Part shown: positions 2,093-29,404 of the stretch, in pieces | Numbering within the stretch: the first letter of the stretch is position 1 | Layout of the letters: each line of letters starts with the position of its first letter | Origin: Carboxylicivirga marina | Lineage (GTDB): Bacteria; Bacteroidota; Bacteroidia; Bacteroidales; Marinilabiliaceae | Assembly (NCBI RefSeq): GCF_016612505.1 | Contig: NZ_JAENRR010000024.1 | Location: forward strand, 1-64,000 | Length of the DNA: 64,000 bases | Reading direction: 5' to 3' | The notes under the pieces: generated by a model | The model's database searches: none | What the model was told of the DNA's origin: nothing | The model's input: the letters and a program-made list of their open reading frames with translations, nothing else | Made by a program: the position numbers and the translations under genes

Positions 2093-5000
2093 TTAAAATT
2101 TCAGATTTAAGTTGAAACCAAAGCTAGCTGGTAAGGCCATGTTACCATACTCAATACCTTGTCCTCCATTGCTAATTGAGAAAGTTGACTGAGGATCGAT
2201 ATTATCTGTTGAACGGTATAAGTAACCTAAGTTCTTACCGAATATACCAATACTAGCGCTCTTAAAATATTTAGAATCTTTAAACAAGTGACCTGGCAAA
2301 CGGTAGGCTACGCTTAATTCGCGCAGAGATACATACGATGCATCGTAAACAAACATGTCATCGATACTGGCCAATGCACCATAATAATCTTCAGGACGAG
2401 CAGTAGTACCCTGACCTTCTAATTCAGCCGGGAACCATTCCTGACCAGCTACATAATCTTCTCTTCCTATAGTTGCTTCGTGCTTACCTAATGAATAAGC
2501 CGATGCTTCGGTAGCTGAGTACACCTCTCCACCAAACTTAGAATCAAGTAATAAGTTCAATGTGAAACTTTTGTAGTTGAATATATTGCTCCATCCTAAC
2601 ATAACCGGATGATAAGCACAACCTAAGGCAGAATAATCATTGGTAGCTTGTGGTAAACCATTATCACTTAAAACGATTTTACCTTCATCATCACGCACCA
2701 TGGTTCTTCCCATAATGGTTCCGTACTCTTCACCCACTGCAGCAATCACATTTACACCGGCGCCACTCATCAGGTTTAGCTGTGTTACACCATCAGCCAA
2801 TTCTTTTACCTCATTAATGTTGTAAGAGAAATTAAACGATGTGTTCCAAGAGAAATTTGCACTACGATAAGGTGTAGCATATAATACCACTTCCCATCCT
2901 TTATTCTGAATAGAACCTGAGTTAACGATAGCCCTGTTATAGCCTGAAGTATTTGAAATATCAATTGGCATAATCTGATCTTCGGCAGTCGAGTTGTAAT
3001 AGGTAACATCTAAGCCTAAACGATTATTTAGGAATTTCAAGTCAGCTCCTACTTCATAGGATGTCATGATAGATGGCTTTAAAGCGGCATTAGGTACCAC
3101 ATCGCCATCAGTACCTCCAACAACAATATTACCACCCCAACCTGGATGTGCATTATCATCTAACTTATATTGTAGAGCCAATTGGTATGGGTCTGTATCC
3201 GAACCAACCTGTGCAACCGAGGCTCTTACTTTAGCAAAAGTCATCCATTGTGGTAAATCAACCACTTCAGATACAATAAATGAAGTACTTACGGATGGAT
3301 AAAAATAAGAGTTGTTATTTGACGGCAAAGTTGAAGACCAGTCATTACGCGCTGATAAATCGACATACAACATGCTGGCGTAACGCAATTGAGCAGTACT
3401 ATATACTGAGTTGATGCGCTTACGGCTATAACCAATCTGCTGTGTATTATTTGACCCAAAACCCGGACGTTGTAAGCCTGGATCTGAGAAACTATCAGAG
3501 AAAATGGCTAAGCTTTCGTACTCTCTGTCCATACGAGAGGCACCAGCATTAACAGTAATGCCAAACTTATCATTAAAGTTTCGATCGTAATTTAATATAA
3601 AATCGTAGTTTGACTCTACCTCGTCAGCCTTCATCATATTAGCACGACCACCTTCGTAATAAGGCGTACCAATTGGATAGATAGATTCGTTGGCAAAGAA
3701 TGTCATATCGCTACCTGCACGCACCTGAGCATTTAAATGGTCAGTAATATGAAGCTTGGCATTAACCAATGACATTACACGCTTTTTGCGGTAGTTGTGC
3801 TTGATTTCGTTGGTTGTCCAGTAGATGTTGCTGTTACCATTAACACCTAAGCCAACAGGCATTCCTGTAACCGAATCTTTGTAATCTTTTAAATCATCCA
3901 ACGACACATTGTTTGGTACACCTAACAACTGCGATGTTGGGTTAAAAGGTGTTGCTCCCATCATCGCATTTTGCGAATCTTCATCAGTGTAAGCGATTTT
4001 AGCATTAATTTCTAAACGGTCATTAAATGTCTTAGTTCCACCTGACACGTTAAAAGTATTACGATCATATGATGTTCCAGGAACCAAACCATTATTGGTC
4101 GTATTGGAGTATGATAAACGTAAATTGGCATCTTCAGTATTGTGATTAACAGCCACAGAGTTCGTCCATGTCATACCGGTATCGAAGAAATCACGTTCGT
4201 TATCGTGGAAAACATAGTCACGCTGGTCGCCACGGTAATTAACATAGCTGGCAACATCATTATACTTTGCACCCCACATTGAAGTCTGGTCGCGACCTGC
4301 ATCGATGCTTTGAGGAGCCTGGCCGTTGATGCCCTGTCCGTAAACTTCTTGCCAATTCGAATAAATTCGAGCACGGTCGAAAGTCATGTTTGAATTAAAG
4401 TCAACACTTGTTCCCTTGTCGCCTTTACCTGTTTTAGTTGTTACCAAAACAACCCCGTTAATAGCACGAGAACCATATAAAGCAGTTGCAGCAGGACCTT
4501 TCAACACTGAAATATTTTCGATATCATCGGCCGCAATACCTGATAAACCATTACCAGAATCGATACCACCGTTATCTGAATCATCAGCATTTGAAAACTG
4601 TGTATTTGAAATTGGTACTCCATCAACTACATAAAGTGGCTCGTTTGAACCAGACAGAACAGCTGCACCACGAATAATTACAGACGAGGAACCACCAGCA
4701 CCCTGTGACGACGTATTAATTTGAACACCAGCCATGCGACCAGAAAGTGCTCCCATTGGGTTGGCATCTTTCATGTTTTCAAAAGCCTCTTCACCAACAT
4801 CAACTGCTGAATAACCAAGTGCTTTCTTTTCGCGTTTGATACCAAGAGCAGTTACGACGACTTCATCAACATTCATGACATCTTCCTGCATCGTAACATT
4901 ATATGATACTCCTGAGGCGATAGTAATTTCTTGCGTAGCAAAACCGATGAAGGAGTATACGATAACACCATTAGCCGGTGCTTCAAACGTGAATTGACCA

Positions 5001-22153: not shown

Positions 22154-22579
22154 TCATTTCTTCTGAACAGTAATCATACGACGACCATCACTTAATTCTT
22201 CAAGCGTTAATTCGAGTCGTCCGGGAGGCAAAAGTGAAGCAATTTTTTCAGGCCATTCAATCATACTGTAGTGTCCTGAATATAAATAATCTTCATATCC
22301 CATATCATAAGCTTCTTCTTCTTCTTTCAATCTATAAAAATCGAAGTGATAAACGATTTTATCCTCTGGCGTATGATACTCGTTTACAATGGCGAAACTG
22401 GGGCTATTAACTGTATCTTCAACCTTTAACTGCTCGCATAATGCCTTTACAAAGGTCGTTTTACCAACTCCCATAGGTCCGTAAAAAGCCAATACACGTT
22501 CTTCATTATATTTAGATAAAAAATCTGCCGCTACAGCATTAATATTATCTAACGAATCGATATAAAAAGTATCCATCAT
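22154..22579 (-). CDS. tsaE: tRNA t6A biosynthesis ATPase TsaE
   Basis: P-loop ATPase that drives the TsaB-TsaD complex during synthesis of threonylcarbamoyl-adenosine at tRNA position 37. Walker A is GPMGVGKTTF; SPSFAIVNEY and the HFDFYRL motif are family hallmarks, and YSMIEWPE is the Walker-B-like segment. I take the ATG at 22579, giving 141 residues: the longer reading begins with TTG and overlaps the promoter octamer at 22598-22605. Upstream of and co-directional with ald. Confidence 0.94.
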   Translation of the reverse strand: MMDTFYIDSLDNINAVAADFLSKYNEERVLAFYGPMGVGKTTFVKALCEQLKVEDTVNSPSFAIVNEYHTPEDKIVYHFDFYRLKEEEEAYDMGYEDYLYSGHYSMIEWPEKIASLLPPGRLELTLEELSDGRRMITVQKK

Positions 22580-22597
22580 CCAAATATTTATAGAATG

Positions 22598-22628
22598 CAA
22601 AAATAATTGAAGTGTTTAAAATAGCAAT
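22598..22628 (-). promoter_or_regulatory. Candidate promoter of tsaE-ald
   Basis: On the minus strand ATTG, 19 bases, then TATTTTTG: the -7 octamer is an exact TAnnTTTG and the -33 differs from TTTG by one base with the ideal spacing. The box ends 18 bases before the chosen ATG. Confidence 0.6.
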
Positions 22629-23045: not shown

Positions 23046-23801
23046 ATGAAAGCATTAGCAATAACTTTCATTTTTTCGATGTTTCTATTCACCAATACAG
23101 AGGCACAATCGGACACTATCGTAATAAATAAGGATCTTCAGCTCATTCATCTGCAAGATTCAGTATTTGTACACATCTCATGGGTTGACTCTAAAAAGTG
23201 GGGACGTTTTTCCAACAATGGATTGCTAATAATTAAAAATGGAGAAGCGGTAATGGTTGACACGCCGATGAGCAACGAGCAAACCAAAGAAATTTGCGAC
23301 TACCTCAACATAGTATGGGAAGTAAAAGTCAGAGCACTAATTGCAGGTCATTTTCATGAAGATTGCATTGGCGGCCTTGAGTATCTGCAAAGTATTGGTG
23401 CTAAATCCCTGGCTAGTAATTTAACCATTGCCAAGTGTCAGGAAGAAGGGCTTCCTGTTCCTTCAATTGGTTTTGATAAAGAGTATGATTGCTTATTTAA
23501 TGAGCTTCCCATTGAATTCAGGTTTTTTGGTGCAGGTCATTCATTTGACAATATTACAATTTGGTTGCCTCAACAGAAAATCCTTTTTGGCGGATGCCTT
23601 GTAAAAGCGGCTCATGCAAGAAACCTTGGTAACCTGTCTCACGCTGTAGTTGATGATTGGGATGTTACCATTGAAAAAGTTCAGTATGCATACCCTGAAG
23701 TAGTTATGGTAATACCAGGACATGGAGCAATTGGCAAATCCGACTTGTTAAGTCATACCATTCAATTAGTTAAAACTTATCGAACACAAAATACCAATTA
23801 A
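23046..23801 (+). CDS. Subclass B1 metallo-beta-lactamase
   Basis: Predicted periplasmic zinc hydrolase of 251 residues that opens beta-lactam rings, including carbapenems in characterised relatives. Signal peptide at 1-20 (ending TNTEA). Both B1 zinc sites are complete: His102, His104, Asp106 in GHFHEDCIGGL; His165 in GAGHSFDNI; Cys184 in FGGCLVK; His226 in IPGHG. Lys187 and Asn196 match the B1 substrate-binding Lys and Asn. These features separate it from glyoxalase- or RNase-type MBL-fold proteins. It overlaps the DUF1697 start by one base (TAATG). Neighbours are unrelated housekeeping genes, with no integron or insertion sequence, so it looks like a resident chromosomal gene. Actual activity is untested. 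Confidence 0.93.
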   Translation: MKALAITFIFSMFLFTNTEAQSDTIVINKDLQLIHLQDSVFVHISWVDSKKWGRFSNNGLLIIKNGEAVMVDTPMSNEQTKEICDYLNIVWEVKVRALIAGHFHEDCIGGLEYLQSIGAKSLASNLTIAKCQEEGLPVPSIGFDKEYDCLFNELPIEFRFFGAGHSFDNITIWLPQQKILFGGCLVKAAHARNLGNLSHAVVDDWDVTIEKVQYAYPEVVMVIPGHGAIGKSDLLSHTIQLVKTYRTQNTN

Positions 23802-24337
23802 TGAGTCAATACATTTCTATATTGCGAGGCATCAACGTTAGTGGCAAGCGTAAAATTTTGATGAAAGACCTAAAACAATCCCTTGAAAAAATCGGCTTAA
23901 CAGATGTGAGAACGTATATTCAGAGTGGCAACATTGTTTTTAAAAGTGTCAACTACAATGCAAATCAATTAGAAGTCTTATTGTGCAACTCTATAAAAGA
24001 AACATTTGGGCATGATGTACCTGTCATCGTTCTAAGTGATAAAGAATGGAGGAAAATGATCGAGTGCAATCCTTTCATTAAGGAGGATATAAACCACCTT
24101 CATATAACATTATTACAATCTGTACCAGAAAAGAAATCTATCGAACAATTAATGCAAGTTACAGCTATTCAAGAAGATAAAATCGAGGTAATAGGTAAGA
24201 GTGTTTATATGCTTATTAAAAGACCTTACCACTATACAAAACTAACAAATAGAGTTTTTGAAAGATGTCTTAAAACCAAAGCCTCCACCCGCAATTGGAA
24301 AACCGCACTCAAAATCAATGAGCTATTAGATAAATAA
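23801..24337 (+). CDS. DUF1697 family protein
   Basis: Cytoplasmic protein of 178 residues opening with the family signature YISILRGINVSGKRKILMKD, followed by TYIQSGNIVF, a hallmark of DUF1697. The family folds as two ferredoxin-like halves and is often horizontally transmitted; no biochemical role is established. Its ATG shares an A with the stop codon of the metallo-beta-lactamase gene, so translation is probably coupled. Whether the pairing has meaning or simply reflects joint acquisition is unknown. Confidence 0.92.
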   Translation: MSQYISILRGINVSGKRKILMKDLKQSLEKIGLTDVRTYIQSGNIVFKSVNYNANQLEVLLCNSIKETFGHDVPVIVLSDKEWRKMIECNPFIKEDINHLHITLLQSVPEKKSIEQLMQVTAIQEDKIEVIGKSVYMLIKRPYHYTKLTNRVFERCLKTKASTRNWKTALKINELLDK

Positions 24338-24463: not shown

Positions 24464-25609
24464 ATGACTAAAAATACGAAAGCACCAGATAACAATGAAA
24501 CCGATCAGACTATAGCCACCGAAGTATCTGATGGCAATTCAAATCATAAAAGTGTTATTTGGGCTACGCGAATTGTATTCCTGTTAGCAATACTCATATT
24601 CATATGGTACTTAGTGGCCGATCGAAGAACGCCATATACCGATCAGGCAAGAATAACAGAGCTTATCATCCCTATCACACCCCGCGTTAGCGGATATATT
24701 ACTGATGTAAACATTAAACTCAACAGCACTGTTGCCAGTAATGATTTACTATTTAAAATTGATAAAGAACCATTTCAGTTAGCTATTCAAAAAGCCAAAG
24801 CTAACCTGGATAATATCACCCAGCAAATTGGAGCTCAGGATGCTGGCATTGAAGCAAGTGCAAGTAGTGTTGGCATTGCCAAAGCACAATTAGACAGGGC
24901 GCAGCGTAATTACGACCGAACGCAACGCATCATCAAAAAGAATCCAGCGGCCGTTTCGCAAGCTGACATTGACCGTGTTGAAACGTCATTGGAACAAGCA
25001 AAAGAGAAGCTATCATCGGCAAATGCTAACCTAAAGAAAGCCAAAGAACAATTAGGCGTTATCGGACCTGAAAACCCACAATTACGCTTAGCCATCGCGG
25101 AACTGGAAAAAGCACAGCTTGAATTGACCTATACCAATATCTATGCTTCAGATGCCGGCTATATTGAAAGTTTTAATATCGATAAAGGATACTACGCAGC
25201 GGCCGGTAAGCCTTTGGCTACCTTGGTTTCGAAAAATGATGTTTGGATACAGGCTGATTTTAGAGAAAATAGCCTTAGCCATATGAAAGTTGGGAATAAT
25301 GTGAAATTTATACTTGATATAGCTCCTGGCAAAATCTTTAAAGGAAAAGTAAGAAGCATCGGTTTTGGTGTTGATGCCGGAAATACGGTCAATAAAGGTG
25401 GATTGCCAGTTATAAAAAGCACAAGTACATGGTTAAGGGATTCACAACGTTTCCCAGTGATTATTGAGTTTGAAGATGAAGAAGCTATCACGATATGCCG
25501 GGCTGGCGGACAAGCAGATGTAGTTGTATACGCCAGTAATAGCTGGTTCTTAAATACAATTGCAAACTTTCGCATTTGGATAAATACATATCTGTCATAT
25601 GTCAGATAG
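24464..25609 (+). CDS. HlyD/EmrA-type membrane fusion protein
   Basis: Periplasmic adaptor of 381 residues for a tripartite efflux pump. A short cytoplasmic N-terminus precedes one membrane helix (about 32-50), then the biotinyl-lipoyl-like half-motif near residues 65-100 (ITPRVSGYITDVNIKLN), a long coiled-coil hairpin (about 105-215), the second lipoyl half and a beta-barrel domain. Architecture matches EmrA/AaeA adaptors. It overlaps the DUF2955 gene by 11 bases, so all three efflux genes are translated together. Confidence 0.93.
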   Translation: MTKNTKAPDNNETDQTIATEVSDGNSNHKSVIWATRIVFLLAILIFIWYLVADRRTPYTDQARITELIIPITPRVSGYITDVNIKLNSTVASNDLLFKIDKEPFQLAIQKAKANLDNITQQIGAQDAGIEASASSVGIAKAQLDRAQRNYDRTQRIIKKNPAAVSQADIDRVETSLEQAKEKLSSANANLKKAKEQLGVIGPENPQLRLAIAELEKAQLELTYTNIYASDAGYIESFNIDKGYYAAAGKPLATLVSKNDVWIQADFRENSLSHMKVGNNVKFILDIAPGKIFKGKVRSIGFGVDAGNTVNKGGLPVIKSTSTWLRDSQRFPVIIEFEDEEAITICRAGGQADVVVYASNSWFLNTIANFRIWINTYLSYVR

Positions 25610-26654
25610 ACAATTAGCATATAAGCCAAAAGAAATACGGCAAAAGGGCATATTTCGCTATGCTGTGGGCTCAACCCTAATTATGGGTATCGCCATGACT
25701 TATGCCTGGAACTTATCATTTATCACCCCCATTTTAGCACTCTCTTTTATTGGTCCTGATGCCAAATGCCCAAGTGCTAAAACAGGTATATCATTTGTAT
25801 TGCTCATATCTATTACCACGTTTTTAGGCTTTGTTGTTTCGAAGTATTTTATCGATAAACAAGCAGTTTTTATATTAATCATTGGCCTTTCACTATTCTA
25901 CATTTTTTATTCTGAGAAATTGAAAGGTCCGGTTAAGACATTTATGCTCATCTCCTTATTATTAATGCCCGTATTAAGCATGCAGCACATTGCGGTGGCT
26001 TATATGTTTAATGTGTATTTTATTATAGGGGCCGTTATTACCATACTTTTAGTCTGGGTAGTGTACTTGATATTACCTGACAAAACCGAGCATGCAAAAG
26101 ACATTGAAGTCGCTAATAAAAAAAACAACAGTGCCAATAATGAATCATTAGATAAAGCCATTCAAACGTCATTTGTTGTATTCCCCATAGTGCTATTATT
26201 TTTCTATTTCGGATGGAGTGGCAGCCTGATTATACTGATGTTTGTAGGCTTACTATCGATGAACCCGAGCTTTAACGCAAAAGCTGGCTTCGTTCTTATT
26301 GTAGGAAATCTGACCGGTGGCGTATTGGCCATTATTGCGTATGAAATCCTAACATTAGTGCCTCACTTTACCTTCTTTATTTTGTTAACCCTTGGTATTG
26401 GGTTATTAATGGCAAAACAAGTATTCTCTGGCAATAAAACAGCCCCTCTATACGGAATGGCTTATTCAACATTCTTACTTATCATTGGGCAGGCAACCAC
26501 GAGTACCAGCGACGCTGGCGAAAAAGTGTGGATACGCGTAATTCAAATAATGATTGCTGTTCTATATGTGGTTATAGCGCTTAATGTATATGATGCTTTT
26601 AAGGTGTACTATCAGAATAGAAAGAAAAAGAATCCATCATTCAAAAACAATTAA
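25599..26654 (+). CDS. DUF2955 integral membrane protein, FUSC-like pump subunit
   Basis: Inner-membrane protein of 351 residues with about ten hydrophobic segments in two clusters, split by a polar loop (about 165-185) rich in Asn and Lys. The LSFIGPDAKCPSAKTG segment is the DUF2955 signature; this family resembles the aromatic-acid/fusaric-acid exporters (FUSC superfamily). Encoded between an HlyD adaptor and a NodT outer-membrane channel with overlaps at both ends, it is the likely inner-membrane pump of the tripartite system. The exported substrate is unknown. Confidence 0.88.
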   Translation: MSDRQLAYKPKEIRQKGIFRYAVGSTLIMGIAMTYAWNLSFITPILALSFIGPDAKCPSAKTGISFVLLISITTFLGFVVSKYFIDKQAVFILIIGLSLFYIFYSEKLKGPVKTFMLISLLLMPVLSMQHIAVAYMFNVYFIIGAVITILLVWVVYLILPDKTEHAKDIEVANKKNNSANNESLDKAIQTSFVVFPIVLLFFYFGWSGSLIILMFVGLLSMNPSFNAKAGFVLIVGNLTGGVLAIIAYEILTLVPHFTFFILLTLGIGLLMAKQVFSGNKTAPLYGMAYSTFLLIIGQATTSTSDAGEKVWIRVIQIMIAVLYVVIALNVYDAFKVYYQNRKKKNPSFKNN

Positions 26655-28024
26655 TGAAGAAAATCTTAATCATATTCATTCTTTCATCAACCGTTTTTAC
26701 TGCTTGTAAATTAGGTCCGGACTTTCAAGAACCAGAATACAATGCAGCTAAAGCATATCGTTTTAGTGGCGATGAAATCAGACAGGTAGTGAATCAGCAA
26801 TGGTGGGAAGTATTTGATGATCCTACATTAGACTCTCTCATTAGCAAGGCCCTTACTAACAATCAGGATGTACTGATAGCTGCTGTTCGATTAGAAGCTG
26901 CGCGAACGAATATCGGTTATACTAAAGCCGACCAGTTGCCGTCATTCAAATATGGTGTTGGCGCGAATGGCTCTGGCCTATCCGGAAATAATCAATCTGG
27001 ATTTCATGCTTACCCCGAATTAACATGGGAAATTGGCTTTTGGGGCAAATATCGACGAATGAATGAAGCCGCACAGGCCGATTACCTGGCTACCAAATAT
27101 GCAGCGCAAACAGTTGAAATAAGCCTAGTTTCGGCGATAGCTTCAACATACTATGCTATACTAGCTTTTAAAGATCAATTATATATCGCCACCAATACCC
27201 TCGCCTCACGAGATAGTGGACTTATTATAATGCGCGATAAATATGAGGGCGGTTTAATCTCAAAAATGGATATGAATCAAGCGCAAATCCAACGCGATAT
27301 TGCCGCAACCGTGGTACCGAACTATAAAAGAGCTATTGCCACCAATGAAAATACCTTAAGTATACTATTAGGCCAACAACCTTATGATATAATTACTGGC
27401 ACTCCATTTCACGAACAAAGCTATATTTTAGATATTCCTGAAGGCATCCCCTCGGAACTAATTGAACGTCGGCCTGATGTACAAACGCAAGAAGCAGTAT
27501 TGCATTCTAAGACTGCAAAAATTGGCATAGCTGAAGCTTTACGTTGGCCATCTTTTAATTTAACTGGTATGTTAGGCACAGCAAGTTCTGATTTAACGGA
27601 CTTCAACACAATGGGTTTAACATGGTCAGCAGGTGGAAATTTACTAGGTCCTATCTTTCAGTTTGGAAAAAATAAAGATAGGGTAACACTTGCCGAAAAA
27701 GATGCTGAGCTAGCATATCTGCAGTACGAGCAATCAGCACTCAATGCCTTTAGAGAGGTAGAAGATGCTTTGATCAAGATTTCGAGCTATAAAGAAGAAC
27801 TTGTGGCTCAGGAATCAAGAACCAACGCAGCCGTTGAATCTGAAGAACTCGCGTTTATTCGCTACAACGAAGGCTCAACAACCTATCTTGAAGTATTAGA
27901 ACAACAGCGCCAGGCTTTTTCAGCTCAACTTGACATACTTACCAACCGGCTTAATCTAATAAATTCGTATATTTTACTTTACAAAGCCCTTGGTGGCGGA
28001 TGGAATACCAATGAAAATCAATAA
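26654..28024 (+). CDS. NodT-family outer-membrane efflux lipoprotein
   Basis: TolC-like outer-membrane channel of 456 residues. The lipobox FTAC gives Cys17 as lipidated residue, followed by the KLGPDFQEPEY start typical of NodT/OprM proteins. Two OEP repeats occupy about 60-250 and 275-450; SYLVLEQQR-like ending (TTYLEVLEQQRQAF) is the second repeat signature. Its ATG overlaps the DUF2955 stop by one base (TAATG). Together with that gene and the HlyD gene it completes a trans-envelope efflux pump. Confidence 0.94.
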   Translation: MKKILIIFILSSTVFTACKLGPDFQEPEYNAAKAYRFSGDEIRQVVNQQWWEVFDDPTLDSLISKALTNNQDVLIAAVRLEAARTNIGYTKADQLPSFKYGVGANGSGLSGNNQSGFHAYPELTWEIGFWGKYRRMNEAAQADYLATKYAAQTVEISLVSAIASTYYAILAFKDQLYIATNTLASRDSGLIIMRDKYEGGLISKMDMNQAQIQRDIAATVVPNYKRAIATNENTLSILLGQQPYDIITGTPFHEQSYILDIPEGIPSELIERRPDVQTQEAVLHSKTAKIGIAEALRWPSFNLTGMLGTASSDLTDFNTMGLTWSAGGNLLGPIFQFGKNKDRVTLAEKDAELAYLQYEQSALNAFREVEDALIKISSYKEELVAQESRTNAAVESEELAFIRYNEGSTTYLEVLEQQRQAFSAQLDILTNRLNLINSYILLYKALGGGWNTNENQ

Positions 28025-29155: not shown

Positions 29156-29404
29156 TTAATTGTCAACTGCTATAACTTCAACAATTTGAGGAACCGTTTT
29201 CTTAACCACCATTTCAACTCCACCTTTTAGCGTTTGCATGCTTAAAGGGCAACCGTCGCATGACCCTTCAAGGCGCACTTTCACGATATAATCATCTGTC
29301 ACCTCAACAAGGCTAATGTCACCGCCATCGCCTTTAAGATATGGCCGAATCTCTTCCAATGCAGTTTCTACCTGCTGAATGATTTGCTCTTTATTCTCTC
29401 CCAT
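29156..29404 (-). CDS. NifU C-terminal domain Fe-S scaffold/carrier
   Basis: 82-residue protein made only of the NifU C-terminal (Nfu) domain, which binds or hands on iron-sulfur clusters. The cluster-binding CxxC is in GSCDGCPLSMQTLKGGVE. It follows mrp by 10 bases, pairing two Fe-S maturation factors in one transcript. No NifU N-terminal scaffold domain is attached. Confidence 0.95.
   Translation of the reverse strand: MGENKEQIIQQVETALEEIRPYLKGDGGDISLVEVTDDYIVKVRLEGSCDGCPLSMQTLKGGVEMVVKKTVPQIVEVIAVDN

Follow-up and report, generated by a model that had tools for sequence, protein, structure and literature searches.

A predicted CcrA-like subclass B1 metallo-beta-lactamase gene in Carboxylicivirga marina

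CcrA (CfiA) of Bacteroides fragilis, together with 25 new families, constitutes group B1-3 of the subclass B1 metallo-beta-lactamases (MBLs), and the chromosomal hosts of this group are all Bacteroidetes, according to PMC5637372, in which families are delimited at 70% identity. The same paper reports B1 genes in 22.4% of Bacteroidetes and includes one plasmid gene, MYO-1, in group B1-3; its discussion assigns all mobile families except SPM to two Proteobacterial groups. MYO-1 and ECV-1 are environmental members of group B1-3, and NDM, VIM and IMP are further B1 enzymes with which the gene described here can be compared.

The window, that is, the whole 64,000-nucleotide stretch of DNA analysed, comes from a 5.65-Mb draft genome of Carboxylicivirga marina with 100% completeness and 0.89% contamination. 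Judged by its sequence, one gene in it is a real, complete CcrA-like subclass B1 enzyme gene and extends the known CcrA-type (B1-3) group by one member. This gene and its surroundings comprise the following features:

22154..22600, minus strand: tsaE, left border of a conserved interval (TIGR00150, 102.5 bits; present in 14 of 14 genus genomes)
23046..23801, plus strand: subclass B1 MBL gene, CcrA/CfiA-like, 251 aa (matches to NF033088 and PDB 1kr3/1znb)
23801..24337, plus strand: DUF1697 protein, 178 aa (PF08002, 136.5 bits)
24464..28024, plus strand: efflux set of an HlyD adaptor, a DUF2955 membrane protein and an OEP outer-membrane channel (Pfam)
29156..29404, minus strand: NifU-like domain protein, closing the conserved interval on the right (PF01106; synteny)

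The MBL reading frame runs uninterrupted from ATG to TAA, and its product scores 245.1 bits (E 5.9e-73) against the NCBIfam 'subclass B1' equivalog NF033088, whose curated cut-off is 200 bits; this score and E-value exclude a chance match. The protein matches 55 models, the 25 listed all being B1, and in Pfam the Lactamase_B superfamily is above cut-off and ODP under its own. The best solved structures are those of Bacteroides CcrA/CfiA (PDB 1kr3 and 1znb, E 8.5e-57), to whose sequences residues 24-246 align without gaps over 223 residues; an alpha-beta/beta-alpha fold is predicted from this alignment. An AlphaFold model made from 4 sequences had a mean pLDDT of 35.1. The first-pass annotation had called the gene a complete subclass B1 MBL, and the intact frame, the NF033088 score, the gapless CcrA alignment and the tree position described below all uphold that description. 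It is the single B1 gene above cut-off in the source genome, where the class A Beta-lactamase2 model found nothing at E 1e-5, whereas the same search was positive in 8 of 14 control genomes.

The signal peptide and active-site positions are located as follows:

23046..23105, plus strand: probable Sec signal peptide, residues 1-20, read by eye from the sequence
23214..23216, plus strand: N57, BBL position 69, a second-shell residue (Asn in 3 of 115 rows)
23349..23363, plus strand: HFHED motif with H102 and H104 (Zn1) and D106 (Zn2), equal to BBL H116, H118 and D120, kept in the CcrA alignment
23538..23540, plus strand: H165, BBL H196, Zn1 (by sequence position)
23595..23606, plus strand: C184 (BBL C221, Zn2) to K187 (BBL K224, substrate binding), by sequence position
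23631..23633, plus strand: N196, BBL N233 (N in 63 of 115 aligned B1 rows)
23721..23723, plus strand: H226, BBL H263, Zn2 (by sequence position)

BBL numbers were set through alignment with CfiA2 and NDM-1 and from PMC7443720, and residues were surveyed in 115 aligned rows, made up of 4 plasmid references and 111 B1 loci (the source genome's own included, and one locus below cut-off). The six zinc ligands (H102, H104, D106, H165, C184, H226) lie exactly where they had been placed at first reading, as do K187 and N196; the Zn1 set (H116, H118, H196) is complete and matches CcrA in the alignment, and the Zn2 set (D120, C221, H263) is likewise complete. Subclass B2 is marked by Asn116 and subclass B3 by the absence of Cys221; with His at BBL 116 and Cys at BBL 221, the MBL belongs to neither by this residue rule. 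All six ligands are present in 114 of the 115 rows. The second-shell residues D84, C121 and G262 are the same as in CfiA2, and Asn at BBL 69 is confined to the source genome and its relatives G013 and G010, the remaining rows carrying Ser (38), Cys (36), Ala (34), Gly (2), Thr (1) or Lys (1). The N-terminus (MKALAITFIFSMFLFTNTEA^Q), hydrophobic and without a lipobox cysteine when read by eye, looks like a Sec signal peptide and fits the one proposed earlier. The sole row with an altered ligand is a B1-like gene (L189, genome G692; 188 bits, below cut-off) in which Gly replaces the first zinc His; PMC5637372 describes the same replacement in two group B1-5 genes, one of them active.

Among described enzymes, CcrA/CfiA shares with the MBL the six zinc ligands, Cys121, Lys224, Asn233, Asp84 and Gly262 (as read from the CfiA2 row) in addition to the gapless structural match. 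Plasmid-borne CfiA2 is 36.8% identical to it across 96% of the protein and has Ser rather than Asn at BBL 69. Assignment to the CcrA/CfiA family proper was rejected, because this identity is below 70% and the CfiA model NF000322 yields 198.7 bits against a cut-off of 550 bits. The top-scoring named subfamily model is that of DYB family B1 (NF045731); identity as a DYB enzyme was also discarded, the score of 200.7 bits being far under the curated cut-off of 550. ECV-1 and MYO-1, compared by residues and outside the tree, share Cys121, Gly262 and Asp84 with the MBL; ECV-1 also shares Asn233, whereas MYO-1 has Tyr233, and both have Cys69 in place of Asn69. NDM, VIM and IMP carry an identical ligand set but are only 28-31% identical to the MBL and fall on the opposite side of a split supported at 98/92 in a tree that has no outgroup and in which IMP-1 forms a long branch.

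This tree, midpoint-rooted, comprises 57 rows: the window gene, its family and class relatives, CfiA2, IMP-1, VIM-1 and NDM-1 (one of 58 rows, G077 at L080, was removed, being only a 48-aa piece). The window MBL groups with G013 and G010 (support 100/96) inside an own-genus clade of eight rows (100/98), itself enclosed in a family clade of 22 rows (100/99). The latter joins another Bacteroidia clade and a set made up of CfiA2 and two relatives (including G027, from the same family as the source genome) in a 39-row group (98/92), outside which lie IMP-1, VIM-1 and NDM-1 along with 15 other Bacteroidia rows. The rows are all B1, and the tree gives a place within B1 only; there it sets the MBL in the group of CfiA2 and other Bacteroidia B1 rows, in agreement with the proposed subclass. 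The genus also includes G003 and G005, but neither is placed in the eight-row clade, so two B1 lineages exist within it. The nearest relatives in named genomes are from a Bacteroidales MAG (79%), Carboxylicivirga sp. A043 (73%) and Carboxylicivirga sp. M1479 (61%). Group B1-3 is defined by clustering with CcrA and by a Bacteroidota host, and the MBL has both properties, the match being made via CfiA2 and not via the sequences of PMC5637372 itself.

The gene very probably encodes a periplasmic di-zinc subclass B1 MBL of the Bacteroidota CcrA-like group, most likely protective against natural beta-lactams. By analogy with known B1 enzymes, the protein would be exported through its Sec signal peptide to the periplasm and would bind two zinc ions, one through H102, H104 and H165 and the other through D106, C184 and H226; a zinc-activated water would then open the beta-lactam ring, with K187 predicted to hold the substrate carboxylate. 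In ecological terms, the bacterium would most likely be shielded from natural beta-lactams. Carbapenem hydrolysis is likely, though not certain, because 5 of 8 B1-3 genes hydrolysed imipenem in Escherichia coli in PMC5637372. Table 3 of that source lists 18 of 21 genes as Carba NP positive, with only 5 of 8 in B1-3, to which all three negatives (designated G24, G65 and G69 there) belong. These three negatives among the eight B1-3 genes tested in E. coli lend some weight to the less probable, although not negligible, alternative that the product, while of the B1 family, hydrolyses carbapenems poorly or not at all and either is a weak or narrow beta-lactamase or hydrolyses some other small molecule, as the negative B1-3 members may do. 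The unusual Asn69 points in the same direction, as does the range of activities, from <5% to about 70% of that of NDM-1, given for three purified environmental enzymes in PMC7443720. Nevertheless, the first shell is complete, K224, N233 and D84 are all present, the match to CcrA extends over 223 residues without a gap, and the discussion of PMC5637372 notes that rare codons, contained in two of the three negatives, could account for those results. MYO-1 and ECV-1, whose Cys121 and Gly262 are as in the window MBL, were active according to PMC7443720. An active beta-lactamase is the reading preferred here, and the purifying selection read from its relatives (below) also favours it.

B1 genes above cut-off were found in 10 of 14 genomes of the genus, 24 of 71 of the family, 41 of 295 sampled from the class and 61 of 395 of the phylum, the source genome being counted at each level; a B1 gene is common in the phylum. 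Within the genus, the MBL occupies the tsaE-NifU interval in six genomes (G000, G007, G009, G010, G011 and G013). In G004 and G008, the pair formed by the MBL and DUF1697 genes adjoins a block that is found at 52.8-63 kb in the window and has peptidase S46 genes at its head, and G003 and G005 carry their own B1 lineage at another place, beside a 250-aa protein. No B1 match above cut-off was obtained in G001, G002, G006 and G012, the last of which has the tsaE-NifU interval with the MBL absent. The first-pass annotation had placed the gene between tsaE and an efflux operon; both do flank the region, but the DUF1697 gene comes first as the direct neighbour, between the MBL and efflux genes, and the efflux genes are beside the MBL in only two of the six same-interval genomes and absent there in four, for which reason they were rejected as a general MBL partner.

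A Pfam scan of 26 window proteins, one of them the MBL, found no transposase or integrase (the window has 52 listed ORFs of at least 110 aa), and no RNA family reached the gathering score within the 64-kb window. The integron integrase model TIGR02249 had matches in 58 of 71 family genomes, none above cut-off, and an integron origin was rejected on this basis. The matches listed end near model position 173-184 or start near 236-245. The integron-specific insert falls between these positions, and the matches are read as Xer-type recombinases lacking it. Among 72,556 plasmid records searched, 2,722 match the MBL, all at <60% identity; the best, CfiA2, resides on a Bacteroides plasmid typed as non-mobilizable.

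These data bear on whether the MBL is a recently acquired mobile resistance gene and not a resident of the genus, a view that is highly improbable, even though the B1 genes of the genus, present in 10 of 14 genomes, fall into two lineages and occupy three types of site, and the family includes a sister lineage that has entered another genus. Against such an origin stand the interval shared by six genomes, the lack of transposases and integrases among the scanned proteins and of integron-integrase matches above cut-off in the family, the absence of any plasmid record reaching 60% identity, and a G+C content (0.382) equal to that of the window (0.383). Furthermore, the window gene, G013 and G010 group together in the MBL trees (100/96; 89) and, weakly (60), in a two-gene housekeeping tree. 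The chromosomal setting is supported by the genus neighbourhoods, the tree and the G+C content. The earlier term 'intrinsic' is apt as regards the shared interval in 6 of 14 genus genomes and the 26 scanned proteins, but it does not extend to the four genomes with no B1 gene, the two with the pair elsewhere or the two with a separate lineage. Similarly, the suggestion that such enzymes are a source pool of mobile carbapenemases is weak for this branch, which lies with CfiA2 and away from VIM-1, NDM-1 and IMP-1, consistent with PMC5637372; in its favour are plasmid-borne MYO-1 and CfiA2 and the change of genera by the sister lineage.

Inheritance was examined with unrooted trees, one of the MBL from ten genomes and one of two housekeeping genes from fourteen. 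Support for the G013-G010 pair is 98 (MBL) and 92 (housekeeping), and for the window with this pair 89 and 60, several other branches being weak. Against G013 and G010, respectively, the window MBL shows 79% and 73% identity, compared with 92% and 90% for the neighbouring alanine dehydrogenase. The dN/dS ratio of the MBL was measurable in two of six pairs, at 0.132 (G011/G009) and 0.133 (G003/G005), and the other four, including all three with the window gene (dN 0.21-0.28), are saturated in dS. For alanine dehydrogenase the ratio is 0.012-0.035 in four of six pairs, three of which have dS near or above 2. These values are read as purifying selection on the MBL in relatives, with the protein changing faster than its alanine dehydrogenase neighbour, and the dN of the window-gene pairs with saturated dS points the same way.

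A sister B1 lineage occurs in three genera of the same family, at L190:1886-2692 (G025), L065:7296-8101 (G015) and L191:3245-4052 (G070). Its DNA is 86-90% identical across only 787-810 bp, and the flanking sequences compared are not similar. The G015 protein is 91.5% identical to that of G025 and 83.7% to that of G070, whereas the alanine dehydrogenases reach only 62.5% and 66.3%, implying a transfer of the gene to or from the G015 line; between G025 and G070 the two proteins give similar values (86.2% and 84.8%), and no transfer is inferred for that pair. In G025, the MBL gene lies on a 3.2-kb contig between two 484-bp direct repeats (L190:1135-1618 and 2693-3176, 94% identical), which match group II intron ends (Rfam RF00029), one above and one below the gathering score; a D1-D4-7 match is also above it. 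A repeat roughly 112 bp long next to the G015 gene was considered as an attC site or cassette end and not supported as such: it is restricted to its own genome (three copies, itself counted; none in four other genomes searched), and two copies folded as DNA give weak structures (z -1.88 and -0.85). Elsewhere, a plasmid of Hymenobacter sp. HDW8 (L129) matches the window MBL protein at 33% in two pieces annotated as short hypothetical proteins, and this stretch, left out of the comparisons, looks broken or frameshifted. One related genus (G034 at L067:8063-9319, G075, G076 and G077) has B1 genes in open frames of 422-454 codons, with an additional portion upstream of the MBL match in G034; these frames may represent an N-terminal fusion or merely an open upstream frame.

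The DUF1697 start codon and the MBL stop codon share one base (TAATG), and in all six of the ten genus carriers that have the pair the spacing is -4 to +6 bp, as counted from ORF-script starts. A second, far-off pair exists in G371 (L116:1426-2730), in which a same-strand DUF1697 gene lies 18 bp downstream of the B1 gene; this genome is a distant Bacteroidota, and its B1 gene belongs to a different clade. Both arrangements would be expected if the two genes formed one translationally coupled functional unit, the MBL not being a stand-alone resistance gene, and it is conceivable, albeit quite doubtful, that such a unit moved jointly within Carboxylicivirga and arose again in the distant Bacteroidota of G371. 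The coupling itself is scarcely more than a slim prospect, given that DUF1697 adjoins only 7 of 111 B1 loci (six of the genus, the window included, and G371) and that, in the other four genus carriers, it is elsewhere in three and was not found in G010. Moreover, the linked copies are 42-49% identical, the G011/G009 pair excepted, and no clade uniting them is supported in a tree that is weak throughout except for that pair, which leaves long-term co-inheritance with the MBL without support. Among open-licence papers, none co-mentions Carboxylicivirga with lactamase or metallo-beta-lactamase; metallo-beta-lactamase and DUF1697 are co-mentioned in one paper, whose title concerns Pantoea plasmids.

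The practical weight of the finding is small, as the MBL showed no sign of mobility and NDM, VIM and IMP are not its near relatives. Should the coupled unit prove true, the role of DUF1697 would be linked to beta-lactam stress. With about 37% identity to CfiA2, the MBL adds a genus-level branch to the Bacteroidota CcrA group.
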